A DNA stretch of 36,813 nucleotides from IMG/VR virus record IMGVR_UViG_3300022929_000082, positions 1 through 36,813 of that record. One strand, given 5' to 3'. The stretch is from a virus. The position numbers and the translations under genes are program-made. Under the pieces are notes generated by a model. That model did no database searches. It saw only the letters and a list, made by a program, of their open reading frames with translations, and was not told where the DNA came from. Position 1 is the first letter of the stretch. The number at the start of each line of letters is the position of its first letter. Below, one piece after another: positions 1 to 4,272 of this stretch.

Positions 1-232
1 GAATTACTAGAACTCCAGGCTTTGCCTCGATATCTAGGTCTTTCTTTTTGTAACCACCAAGGGCAAATTCCATGGCGTATTCCGTGTCAGAATATTTGAT
101 AATATTGTGACGAGGAAAACCCTTCTCATTTGCGCCAGCGGCAGTTAGTCTTTCTATCTCATCCCATACGTGGTCGAAACCAATGAAACGAGAGTGGGGG
201 AACGAAAACACTTTTGTTCGTGTATTAACCAT
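1..232 (-). CDS. hsp20: Small heat-shock protein Hsp20 (5' part, cut by window edge)
   Basis: Hand translation from the ATG at 232 gives 77 residues before the window ends. The visible part has the N-terminal layout of phage and bacterial Hsp20/IbpA proteins: FIGFDHVWDEIERL near residues 16-29, then the start of the alpha-crystallin domain (HNIIKYSDTEYAMEFAL, followed by GYKKKDLDIE and a GVLVI strand). Family members are ATP-independent holdases that keep unfolding proteins soluble. A strong ribosome-binding site (AAGGAGATAGCA) precedes the ATG. The gene follows regA after a gap of about 100 bp that holds a candidate promoter. In T4 the polymerase gene 43 follows regA, so hsp20 is extra at this spot; whether 43 comes next is outside the window. 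Identification is by motif recognition; the C-terminal half is unseen. Confidence 0.85.
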   Translation of the reverse strand, partial: MVNTRTKVFSFPHSRFIGFDHVWDEIERLTAAGANEKGFPRHNIIKYSDTEYAMEFALGGYKKKDLDIEAKPGVLVI

Positions 233-729: not shown

Positions 730-1104
730 TTAGTTTCTTCCACCTTTATACACCTTTTTCTTAATTTCTGCGACTTGATTCGGTGTTAAAAGAGAAAGTG
801 CTGAATGCGCTTTTTCGTTGCTGTATCCATAATACTCTTTGATAACTTCCAAATCAGTTTCTTCGATTGGTTTCGTCCACTTGGAGAAACGTTTTCGTTT
901 TCTGACTATATTTAGTAAAAAATGAAATTGTAGTTTATTGTCTAGTTGACTGTATCTATTCATTTCATTTGCAACAGCAACAGTGTCTGGAAAATAAGAT
1001 AATTGTCTATTGACAATATAAGGGAGATAACTTTTTTCTACATCATCATTCATAATATCGACTTTTGTATAATTAATAGAATTAACAAAATCAAATGGGT
1101 TCAT
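730..1104 (-). CDS. 62: Clamp-loader small subunit gp62
   Basis: With four gp44 subunits, gp62 forms the loader that opens the gp45 clamp on primed DNA; it has no ATPase motif of its own. The 124-aa product carries the family pattern NPFDFVNSIN at the start, then VNRQLSYFPDTV, ANEMNR, LDNKLQFHFLLN, RKRKRFSKW and KEYYGYSNEKA. It is clearly shorter than T4 gp62 (187 aa). The longest frame begins with GTG at 1110, but the ATG at 1104 has an AGGA about 8 nt upstream and gives the expected MNPFDF start. The gene overlaps the end of the membrane-protein gene by 14 bp. In T4 genes 44 and 62 are adjacent and translationally coupled; here a 333-codon gene separates them. Confidence 0.9.
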   Translation of the reverse strand: MNPFDFVNSINYTKVDIMNDDVEKSYLPYIVNRQLSYFPDTVAVANEMNRYSQLDNKLQFHFLLNIVRKRKRFSKWTKPIEETDLEVIKEYYGYSNEKAHSALSLLTPNQVAEIKKKVYKGGRN

Positions 1105-2092
1105 TATCACTTCCTACATTATTTAATTTATTTACTTGCTCTTGGGTCATCTTCTGACGTTTTAACAGTTCGCCGTTTTTACTGCGCCATCCTAAAATAC
1201 TAGCATAAGCACCTTTCTTTAACCATTTTGGGCGAGATTTTTTGCTACCAGGAGCATTTGGTTGATTCAAGTTTTTCGAAGATTCTTGTTTCTGCTTTAT
1301 GGTTGGGTCGTCTATAATCAGAATTTCTTTAGTTGCAACAGCAGAAGGCGTTTCTTCTTTCTTTGTTACTATTCCTTTGGTACTAGCAATCAACAAAACA
1401 ACTGCCAAAGGGTCAAAGACAAATACCAGAGAAAGTATAACTGCTCTTACTGCCTTGTCATAATAACTCGACGCCTGTTCGCCATATACCAACTCAGCAA
1501 TATATTTAATTGCCCCAATTTCTAACTCGAAGGCAATTTTCTCTTTCTCTAATTCTAGCGCATTTTCCTGTAAAACTTCAAGGGAATCTGATATTTCTTC
1601 TCGAGTAGATTCTAAACGCGATCGCTCTTCTTTCTGATCGTCTCTAGCATTTAATCCTCTTGTGACAAACCCGCGCGAAATATATTCTTCAAGGGCAGCG
1701 TCTAAAGAATCTAATTGAGCATCAATTGCTGTTATTTTTCTAGTTTCCGAAGAAATCTTTCGCTGCAGGTTCTCAAGTTTAACATCATTATTTGATGACT
1801 TGGTTTCTTGCTCGAGGTGTGCTTTGGACAGATATCCAAAAATTCCCATGCTGGTGATAAACATCAAAACAATTACTGCAGAGGTTAGGTATGTTTTGAT
1901 TGGAATACTAATTTTCTTCCATTCAAGATGCAACCACGCAGCAGTAACTAGCTTGCCGACTTCTAATGATCCTGCCATTATTATCACCGACCAATACGCG
2001 CCAGGAAATATTGTAGATAATCCCACAATTGAGAAAAATGCAGCAATAGACGCTAAGGATATTGATGTTATAAATGCGAGATAATTAATCAT
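1091..2092 (-). CDS. Membrane protein with long coiled coil, inserted between clamp-loader genes
   Basis: This 333-aa protein has three hydrophobic segments near the N-terminus (about residues 2-24, 33-54 and 68-88), a highly charged heptad-like region (about 93-205) and a fourth hydrophobic segment (about 216-237). A basic tail ends in a short domain around GWRSKNGELLKRQ. No enzymatic motif is visible. Similar membrane coiled-coil genes are known to me at this place in other marine T4-like phages, with no established function. The start ATG shares one base with the gene 44 stop (TAATG), and the end overlaps gene 62, so it is co-translated with the replication clamp loader. A role in tethering replication or altering the host inner membrane is only inference. 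Confidence 0.8.
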   Translation of the reverse strand: MINYLAFITSISLASIAAFFSIVGLSTIFPGAYWSVIIMAGSLEVGKLVTAAWLHLEWKKISIPIKTYLTSAVIVLMFITSMGIFGYLSKAHLEQETKSSNNDVKLENLQRKISSETRKITAIDAQLDSLDAALEEYISRGFVTRGLNARDDQKEERSRLESTREEISDSLEVLQENALELEKEKIAFELEIGAIKYIAELVYGEQASSYYDKAVRAVILSLVFVFDPLAVVLLIASTKGIVTKKEETPSAVATKEILIIDDPTIKQKQESSKNLNQPNAPGSKKSRPKWLKKGAYASILGWRSKNGELLKRQKMTQEQVNKLNNVGSDNEPI

Positions 2093-3027
2093 TACTTCAT
2101 ATTTATATTCGCCATGACTTCAGTTAGACACGCAACCACGTTTAATTCATGATCTGCAACAAAAGCATTCTTGTACTGATAATCTGCTAAGATCAACACA
2201 AGTTGTGGAATTGATGCTGAGTCAACTTTGTCATACATATTATCATATATGCTGCGAAATATAGAAGAGGCGTCTACGTCAATATTATTGACAACCCACG
2301 TTCTCATCTTCTTGAAATCTTTATCCGCAAGAGATTTGAACAAGAGTTCGTAGTTTGAACTTTCTACATTTAAAGAAATATTCAACACACCGCCCACAGA
2401 AGCTCTTTGTATTTCATTAAGAACCCTGCGCCAGTCTGGAGCATGTTTTATAATAAGGTCCGCAATCGGTTTGGTCTGACCTTTATCGGAAATGCCTTCT
2501 TTTGCTAGAATGTCCATAACTCGATTCAACATCTGTTCGCACAGCTTCGCCATGTCTTTCTTTGTTGTATTGAATTCATAGACGCCACAGCGAGAATGTA
2601 GCGGTTCGATGATGCGGTTCTTAAAATTGCAGGTAAGAATAAACCGACAGTTATCTGAAAACTCTTCAATGAACCCGCGTAGGGCAGGTTGCGTTGATTG
2701 GGGGTTCAGATAATCTGCCTCGTCTAGAATCACGACTTTAAAATCGCCTTGTAGAGAAACCGAAGACGCGAACCGTTTTATTTTGCCTCGCAGTGTGTCA
2801 ATATTCCCTTCTTCCGAACCATTAACTATGATATAATCGAGATGAAGTTCGTTACAAAGAGCCTTGGCAACCGTGGTCTTACCGGTTCCTGCGCTACCAG
2901 TAAATAACATGTTGGGCAATTCGCCGCTAGAAACAATCTCAGAAAATGTCTTCTTCAGTTTTACGGGAAGAATGACATCTTGAATTTTTTGCGGTCTATA
3001 TTTTTCGACAAGTAGAAAAGAATCCAT
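2092..3027 (-). CDS. 44: Clamp-loader large subunit gp44 (AAA+ ATPase)
   Basis: gp44 is the ATPase of the sliding-clamp loader. The 311-aa product (T4: 319) has EKYRPQ at residues 8-13, a Walker A GSAGTGKT at 44-51, a Walker B DEAD at 102-105, a sensor region LTCNF at about 131-135 and the SRC arginine-finger motif at 145-147, followed by the helical lid and collar. All catalytic elements look intact. The ATG at 3027 has a good ribosome-binding site (AGGAGTAATT). It is separated from the clamp block by an 83-bp gap holding a hairpin and a possible promoter, and its stop overlaps the membrane-protein ATG. Confidence 0.95.
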   Translation of the reverse strand: MDSFLLVEKYRPQKIQDVILPVKLKKTFSEIVSSGELPNMLFTGSAGTGKTTVAKALCNELHLDYIIVNGSEEGNIDTLRGKIKRFASSVSLQGDFKVVILDEADYLNPQSTQPALRGFIEEFSDNCRFILTCNFKNRIIEPLHSRCGVYEFNTTKKDMAKLCEQMLNRVMDILAKEGISDKGQTKPIADLIIKHAPDWRRVLNEIQRASVGGVLNISLNVESSNYELLFKSLADKDFKKMRTWVVNNIDVDASSIFRSIYDNMYDKVDSASIPQLVLILADYQYKNAFVADHELNVVACLTEVMANINMK

Positions 3028-3110: not shown

Positions 3111-3326
3111 TTATTCCACCGGAGCAGGATCCTCGAATCCGAACTCAGATTGGGCGTTCTCTACTAATTGGATCATTGCAATGCATTGATCGCGAAGTTG
3201 TCCGATTGTCGCTAATTCTTCACCACGAAACCCACCGCGAGCAGCAACTGTATCAATAACAGCAACTGTACTTCGCGTGATTCTGTTGGCGAGATCTACC
3301 ATTTCTTCAATTTGTTCATTTTCCAT
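3111..3326 (-). CDS. Small conserved protein, paralogue of the 80-aa protein on the other side of gene 45
   Basis: The 71-aa acidic protein contains VDLANRI, then a core reading VAARGGFRGEELATIGQLRD. The same core pattern, in the order RG, KG/RG, DEL/EEL, VG/IG and R, occurs in the 80-aa product at 4030-4272. I do not know a function. The frame is open upstream to 3398 inside gene 45. The ATG at 3326 is preferred because GGAG lies 9 nt upstream, overlapping the gene 45 stop. It is the last gene before the hairpin at 3064-3085, and its position suggests co-expression with the clamp. Confidence 0.75.
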   Translation of the reverse strand: MENEQIEEMVDLANRITRSTVAVIDTVAARGGFRGEELATIGQLRDQCIAMIQLVENAQSEFGFEDPAPVE

Positions 3327-3330
3327 TATT

Positions 3331-4005
3331 TTATTCTCCATATGAACTTGTTTTCTCAAGGGCACACCAATACTCGATTGACGTTTGTTTATTAACAAAA
3401 TGTGAAATCAACTTAGAAGAAATATTAACATCATAATCTCCGTCAATCATCTTAAGATTACGAATATCGAAAATGAAGTTAAAGTTTTCTTCTGTGAAAG
3501 TTCCAGCAATATCAATCGAAAAAGCATTTGATGTTTTGTCATTATTATCCAATACCGACAAACAAAGAACATTATCTTTTGCTGAGATTGACATCTCAGT
3601 ATGCCCTAGGACGGAAGAAGCCTTTCGAACCCGACTCAAAGTGTCTTGAGTCAAAGTAAAGGAAACGTCCGTCGAAGGCATTTTAATATCCTTTGCTGGT
3701 TTTGTCAGAACTTCGAGGTCAGAATAAAAATATTTAATTCTTGACGTGCCGACCAAGTCTCCAACGACAACGTAATTCTCTTCGAATTGCAGTCTTGGTT
3801 GGTCGACTAATGATAGCACACTAAGAAACTCATTAAGATCATAAATACCAAACGTGAATGGAAACTCAACGTCTAGTGTAGATGAACTCAAAAGGTTTCT
3901 TGCCTCTGAAATTGTCTTGAGAGTATTACCCTCAGTAATGACTATGTTTGGATTAATTGACGAATAGTTCCTAAGAACCTGCATCGTTGTTTCAGTAAGT
4001 TGCAT
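3331..4005 (-). CDS. 45: DNA polymerase sliding clamp gp45
   Basis: gp45 is the trimeric ring that tethers the phage polymerase and, with gp55 and gp33, activates late transcription. The 224-aa product (T4: 228) has the family N-terminus with LRNYSSINPNIVI, the inter-domain region around YDLNEFLSVLSLVD, and a C-terminal half with MIDGDYDVNISSKLISHF. It lacks an ATPase or nuclease motif, as expected. The longest frame starts with a TTG at 4020; the ATG at 4005 matches T4 length better and has a GGA about 10 nt upstream. The gene sits between two paralogous small genes. The promoter at 4307-4335 probably drives the three-gene block. Confidence 0.92.
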   Translation of the reverse strand: MQLTETTMQVLRNYSSINPNIVITEGNTLKTISEARNLLSSSTLDVEFPFTFGIYDLNEFLSVLSLVDQPRLQFEENYVVVGDLVGTSRIKYFYSDLEVLTKPAKDIKMPSTDVSFTLTQDTLSRVRKASSVLGHTEMSISAKDNVLCLSVLDNNDKTSNAFSIDIAGTFTEENFNFIFDIRNLKMIDGDYDVNISSKLISHFVNKQTSIEYWCALEKTSSYGE

Positions 4006-4029: not shown

Positions 4030-4272
4030 TTATTCAGATGGAGTCTCTTCTTCTGTTGGTGCCTCTTCCTGCGGGGGCATGGTTGCTTGTACGAAACTGG
4101 CCAAGCGGTTTCGGAAACTGCCAACCATTTCGAGCTCATCGCCCTTTACAGCACCACGCTGACTCATCGCATCAATAAAATTGACGGCATTAGCGATATC
4201 CACCAAAGAAAGACCTGGTTCTTGCGGGGCGGATACTTCTTCTTCTACTGCTACTACTTCTTCTTCACTCAT
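4030..4272 (-). CDS. Small acidic conserved protein upstream of the sliding clamp
   Basis: The 80-aa acidic protein has Glu-rich ends and a central helical core: LVDIANAV followed by FIDAMSQRGAVKGDELEMVG. The core resembles the 71-aa protein at 3111-3326. Proteins with an 'RGafrGeEL..vG' core occur in other marine T4-like phages as far as I recall, without known function. The ATG has a clean ribosome-binding site (AGGAG 7 nt upstream). It is the first gene after the sigma70-like promoter at 4307-4335. Being next to the clamp suggests a replication or transcription accessory role, which is inference from position only. Confidence 0.8.
   Translation of the reverse strand: MSEEEVVAVEEEVSAPQEPGLSLVDIANAVNFIDAMSQRGAVKGDELEMVGSFRNRLASFVQATMPPQEEAPTEEETPSE

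Follow-up and report, generated by a model that had tools for sequence, protein, structure and literature searches.

Two questions are raised by the membrane-protein gene that separates the genes for the large and small clamp-loader subunits in a viral genome: what does its product do, and does its position reveal this? In the 36,813-nt stretch of viral DNA analysed here (IMG/VR record IMGVR_UViG_3300022929_000082, hereafter the window), the ORF that we label M, a name also given to its family, spans positions 1091..2092 on the minus strand, stop codon included, and encodes 333 aa from an ATG start codon according to the ORF reading of the window. Upstream lies the gene for gp44, the clamp-loader large subunit (2092..3027, minus strand; phrog_168, E 1.9e-111), and downstream that for gp62, the small subunit (730..1104, minus strand; ATG start; phrog_225, E 6.6e-43; PF16790, E 4.6e-16). 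ORF calls were mechanical throughout; regA (phrog_242, E 8e-62), gp45 (phrog_223, E 2e-68) and gp46 were also identified in the window by profile. The 3´ end of gp44 reads ATGAAGTAATG, where the last base of the stop codon TAA (2094-2092) doubles as the first base of M (TAATG), and the gp62 ATG at 1104 gives M and gp62 an overlap of 14 bp (1091-1104). The placement of the ORF between the two loader genes, with both overlaps, was thus verified as originally predicted. Elsewhere in the window, an Hsp20-type small heat-shock gene (1-232, minus strand) adjoins regA; in HTVC008M, Mosig and S-SM2, annotations likewise place genes of the Hsp20 type close to those of the clamp loader. Two small ORFs on either side of gp45 (3111-3332 and 4030-4272, both minus strand) look like paralogs, and the first also matches the L015 relative of the second (E 1e-6).

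Hydropathy analysis of M revealed four hydrophobic peaks (residues 5-23, 36-54, 68-86 and 217-235), and an AlphaFold2 model computed from a 49-sequence alignment (mean pLDDT 82.9) placed helices at residues 2-28, 30-56, 63-139, 143-191, 193-206 and 211-246. The predicted transmembrane (TM) helices, all on the minus strand, are TM1 at approximately residues 5-28 (2009..2080; near-invariant S21 and G24), TM2 at approximately residues 30-56 (1925..2005; near-invariant E44 and K47 inside and F29 just ahead), TM3 at approximately residues 63-90 (1823..1906; near-invariant T80, S81, G83, G86 and L88) and TM4 at approximately residues 211-240 (1373..1462; near-invariant V225, F226, D227, P228, L229 and A230). 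As part of the helix at 63-139, TM3 runs on into the first arm of a coiled-coil hairpin (1520..1822, minus strand), the arms of which (residues 91-139 and 143-191, joined by a tip at 140-142) are ~49 residues each in the model, or ~75 angstroms at 1.5 per residue. The expectation of four TM helices and a coiled coil was therefore borne out, while the single rod of ~110 residues that had been proposed is replaced in the model by an antiparallel hairpin. Hairpin lengths in the family are clustered: among 141 loops shorter than 160 residues, half measure 106, 126, 130 or 131 residues.

Across 104 divergent members of the family, K/R residues per sequence numbered 2.70 for loop 2-3 and 3.27 for the first 15 residues past TM4, a stretch present in 100% of the 104. 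The corresponding values were lower for loop 1-2 (0.19), the segment following TM3 (0.94) and the segment preceding TM4 (1.09). By this positive-inside statistic, loop 2-3, the tail (residues 241-333; 1094..1372, minus strand) and both termini are probably cytoplasmic, and loop 1-2 and the hairpin are predicted to be periplasmic. The assignment of the hairpin draws in addition on the AlphaFold2 model and on the peptidoglycan-binding-like inserts of homologs described below. At the end of the tail, residues 296-326 (~1115-1207) form a small predicted beta-beta-beta-alpha element.

M is a member of an unnamed and very large family of inner-membrane proteins encoded by phages and also by some bacteria. 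Profile-guided scans detected at least 595 IMG/VR loci and tblastn 13 isolate or assembled phage records, and members also occur on 69 contigs from genomes of bacteria or archaea; many of these contigs come from MAGs and may be viral, and some are clearly chromosomal. In each of 14 larger phage contigs checked there was one main copy, second matches being mostly halves of one long protein. The family signature comprises LExxKL in TM2, TSxGxxGxL in TM3 and FDPxA in TM4, with a coil between TM3 and TM4, and the window protein has every one of these elements. Pfam, NCBIfam and PHROGs contain no family for M, giving matches only to coil or composition, sequence and fold searches against the PDB returned only coiled coils and ABC transporters without significance, a BFVD fold search returned only unnamed homologs, and no description of the family was found in literature searches. 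The homologs Mosig_00157 (Pelagibacter phage Mosig EXVC030M), XacN1 ORF242 (Xanthomonas phage), Salicola phage SCTP-2 gene 195 and Flavobacterium phage immuto35A_85, all annotated as hypothetical, are 28-50% identical to the window protein over the TM core and loop and have the same invariant residues, whereas their gene neighbourhoods, loop lengths and tails differ. Most of the Verrucomicrobiota/Planctomycetota members (L149-L169) are 750-1107 aa long, with a long C-terminal region past TM4.

Gene M is under purifying selection. For two relatives from the window lineage that are 83% identical, dN/dS was 0.125 for M compared to 0.058 for gp44 and 0.066 for gp62, and within M the same pair gave 0.038 for TM1-3, 0.024 for TM4, 0.085 for the hairpin and 0.30 for the fast-evolving tail. 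An alignment of 104 members shows no variation at S21, G24, F29, K47, S81, G83, G86, G193, D227, P228 and A230, and almost none at E44, T80, L88 and F226. Because of this selection, the view that M is simply carried along in its lineage, neutral and without a selected role, is very nearly untenable; it would fit a gene that is one among many cargos at the gp44-gp62 junction (see below), but not the ratio of 0.125, residues invariant across phages and bacteria, or the size of the family. The pattern of constraint could also indicate an ion or solute channel, in which the intramembrane E/K and D-P residues would make up a pore or proton-linked device, with the periplasmic hairpin acting as its gate. 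E44, K47 and D227-P228 do lie inside predicted TM helices and selection is strongest on these helices; nevertheless, M matched no channel in sequence or fold and the polar residues could equally stabilise a bundle or an oligomer, making a channel quite improbable. A family so strongly selected in marine T4-like phages, jumbo phages and bacterial chromosomes, yet named by no profile library, is a promising candidate for a conserved role of phages at the host envelope.

We then ask what can be read from the position of M. IMG/VR relatives at 66-100% identity (L010-L018 and L021) retain the order 45-x-44-M-62-regA, and the conservation of the 44-M-62 position over this range, together with the dN/dS of M, indicates that the gene is there by more than chance. 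The more distant members L015 and L021 begin M with a TTG codon 20-30 bp past gp44, and the overlap with gp62 is 4 bp in the former and 1 bp in the latter. Conserved translational coupling through the gp44 overlap was considered and rejected, given that the gp44-M spacing and the start codon differ in these two relatives; the way in which M overlaps its neighbours is not conserved.

The junction was examined more broadly using 80 close gp44 relatives (68-75% identity; L390-L469), taken, like all IMG/VR relatives here, from among the matches listed, which were sorted by how closely they resemble the query; gp62 was in reach in 67. Among these 67 listed relatives, the gp44-gp62 gap ranged from -8 to 2273 bp: 56 hold 102-2273 bp, a few of the shortest gaps being devoid of any ORF of at least 60 aa, and in the other 11 the two genes are contiguous with a direct overlap. 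Gene M was present at the junction in one of the 67, the remaining 66 having other cargo or none. The cargo consists mostly of unrelated genes that, as read from their sequences, resemble dCMP deaminase, 2OG-Fe(II) oxygenase, cytidylyltransferase, a glutaredoxin/HAD fusion and IMP dehydrogenase/GMP reductase, among others. A 2OG-Fe or Fe2OG oxygenase is annotated at the junction in HTVC008M and Mosig, and S-SM2 has three genes there. M itself can be far away: in Mosig it lies at 115-116 kb of the record and gp44-gp62 at 5-7 kb, 109 kb apart, and on the 161-kb contig L097 gp44 and gp62 are contiguous at 97-98 kb with M at 114 kb between genes 43 and uvsX. Taken together, the survey and these two placements identify the junction in marine T4-like phages as a recurrent cargo slot, or insertion hotspot, for small metabolic and other genes of no assigned role, with M as mobile or re-sited cargo. 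No description of this insertion site was found in literature searches. Most relatives carry M elsewhere, so its position is not co-conserved with gp44 and gp62 across the family. Thus, what holds of the original prediction is a conserved membrane coiled-coil protein whose place is fixed in its own lineage. The interruption as a tie to the loader, and with it the link between replication and the host membrane, is not supported, the junction being a general cargo slot and the coiled coil being predicted to lie in the periplasm, off the replisome side. Insertion at this site should not be taken as a functional link to replication.

Replication genes are nonetheless frequent neighbours of M. In a sample of 163 viral loci, nonredundant at 70% and with neighbour profiles built from those same loci, the contexts were varied (44|62, 43|uvsX, 61, clpX and wall hydrolases), with M adjoining uvsX in 17, gp43 in 10, gp44 in nine, a glucosaminidase in seven and a SleB-type hydrolase in seven. 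A replisome gene was directly beside M in 30 of the 163 loci, compared to ~4.5% for the other genes of two such genomes. The high frequency could reflect a replication anchor, where the tail or the TM bundle of M would hold the replisome or the genome of the phage at the host membrane, as could the diversity of the contexts, which include gp44 in XacN1-type jumbo phages as well as 44|62, 43|uvsX and 61; T4 gp69, a membrane-associated replication protein given in the reference list of PMC3331839, would be a precedent. However, the replisome-adjacent loci stem from only ~4-6 independent contexts, and while the naive probability of the excess is ~5e-11, it becomes 0.008-0.28 if 15-30 independent contexts are assumed, so we regard the excess as suggestive only. 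Furthermore, the tail, the only part of M facing the replisome, is the least conserved, co-expression in the early phase accounts for the neighbourhood just as well, and in most of the family no replisome gene lies close to M. Given these points, as well as the periplasmic prediction for the coil and the general nature of the cargo slot, we consider an anchor doubtful, although not far-fetched. In a poorly resolved tree (146 columns, fasttree), the window clade groups with relatives that have M beside gp61 or RNR, and adjacency to gp44 emerges independently in this clade and among jumbo phages (three parsimony changes). Of all gene clusters found up to four genes from M, the most frequent is that of phage-encoded ribosomal protein bS21 (36 of 163 loci; L316:7421-7663 matches PF01165, E 1.6e-14), and an IF3-like gene, as read from sequence, is near M in 12 loci (e.g., L138:8330-8866).

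Wall hydrolase genes form a second group of neighbours. Glucosaminidase (PF01832), SleB-type (PF07486) or GH19-like genes, the first two types confirmed by Pfam, were found within three genes of M in ~24 of the 163 loci. M might accordingly be a lysis effector, a holin-, pinholin- or spanin-like part working directly with the adjacent peptidoglycan hydrolase: in the Mosig-type lineage the gene for a membrane-anchored glucosaminidase is directly upstream of M or one to two genes away, hydrolases of the SleB type neighbour it in another lineage, a holin gene is five genes upstream in Flavobacterium phage immuto, and spanin profiles match weakly over the coil. We think such a direct role unlikely, since the spanin matches (best E 6e-6) cover coiled coil only, M is much larger than known pinholins and is conserved on bacterial chromosomes, and in the window lineage its neighbours are early replication genes, with the gene for the SleB-type hydrolase ~8 kb away.

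Further evidence relating to the envelope came from the hairpin loop of relatives and from bacterial chromosomes. In 18 of 386 members, the loop carries an inserted motif, IKxLQxLVGTxxDGxYGxxTAxxV, which was found in none of 5380 other (neighbouring) ORFs and in no shuffled sequence. The insert resembles PG_binding_1/3, at Pfam E values of 0.002-0.04 that are below the cut-off, and most top PDB matches of an insert profile (best E 0.003) were wall enzymes with such domains, including a muramoyl carboxypeptidase, an L,D-transpeptidase-type protein and cell-wall hydrolases; a fold search with an AlphaFold2 model of the hairpin segment gave nothing significant. On Verrucomicrobiota/Planctomycetota chromosomes, the gene after M encodes a lipoprotein with a lipobox in 14 of 15 loci. 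For phage M, enrichment of lipoprotein or membrane genes alongside was without significance (P = 0.09 for lipoprotein, P = 0.37 for any). On Bdellovibrionales contigs (L113, L115, L117, L118, L120, L121, L126, L129, L136 and L147), a membrane-protein gene of cluster c39, which matches no Pfam family, follows M within 5 bp.

The topology, the motif in relatives, the wall hydrolase genes near M, the lipoprotein neighbours in Verrucomicrobiota/Planctomycetota, the pattern of selection and the cargo slot lead us to favour, tentatively and with a probability of about 0.45, that M is a phage inner-membrane protein acting at the envelope and not part of the clamp loader, with its hairpin towards the wall and a role in lysis timing or superinfection control. 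Four TM helices would leave both termini in the cytoplasm, with the ~75-angstrom hairpin projecting through the periplasm towards the peptidoglycan, where it may touch or sense the wall. The TM bundle with its polar E44, K47 and D227, the most conserved part, would relay a wall signal or stabilise the envelope, and the tail would be free to vary. The outcome might be control of the lysis time of the infected cell, or exclusion of other phages, and the 44-62 cargo slot would give M co-expression with replication genes. Counting against an envelope role, the hairpin of the window protein has neither the motif nor a PG_binding_1/3 match in Pfam, the matches in relatives fall below Pfam cut-offs and gained nothing from the fold search, lipoprotein and membrane genes are not significantly enriched beside M in phages, and many of the contexts of M (43|uvsX, 61 and 44) are associated with replication, not lysis. 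A bolder version, in which M is a wall-sensing device whose hairpin reads peptidoglycan and whose charged TM bundle and tail link envelope state to replication or lysis, strikes us as unlikely; if true, it would constitute an undescribed class common to T4-like phages, jumbo phages, Bdellovibrionales and Verrucomicrobiota.

Among known systems, M has the overall plan of tetraspanins (PF00335), with four TM helices, a small first outer loop and a large outer domain between TM3 and TM4, and the PF00335 profile matches 38 of 104 family members at E <= 0.01 (best 8e-7). However, the window protein scores 13.0 bits against a gathering cut-off of 32.1, its 333 aa include no cysteine and hence lack the conserved CCG cysteines of the large outer loop, and a coiled-coil hairpin takes the place of the disulphide-bonded EC2 domain. 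DUF4407 (PF14362), which combines membrane helices with a coiled coil, matches four of the 104 members (best E 1.7e-4) but not the window protein. M also differs from Rz-like spanins, its weak matches to them being confined to the coil and its four TM helices contrasting with the single-TM i-spanin or lipoprotein o-spanin. Phi29 p16.7 and T4 gp69, phage membrane proteins reported to tie replication to the host membrane, can be likened to M by description only; M has four TM helices, and its coil is predicted to be periplasmic. The T4 superinfection immunity protein Imm is made early, resides in the inner membrane and has its gene directly behind gene 43; it is far smaller than M and has no coil. 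Again likened by description only, the place of Imm after gene 43 resembles that of M in the 43-M-uvsX lineage.
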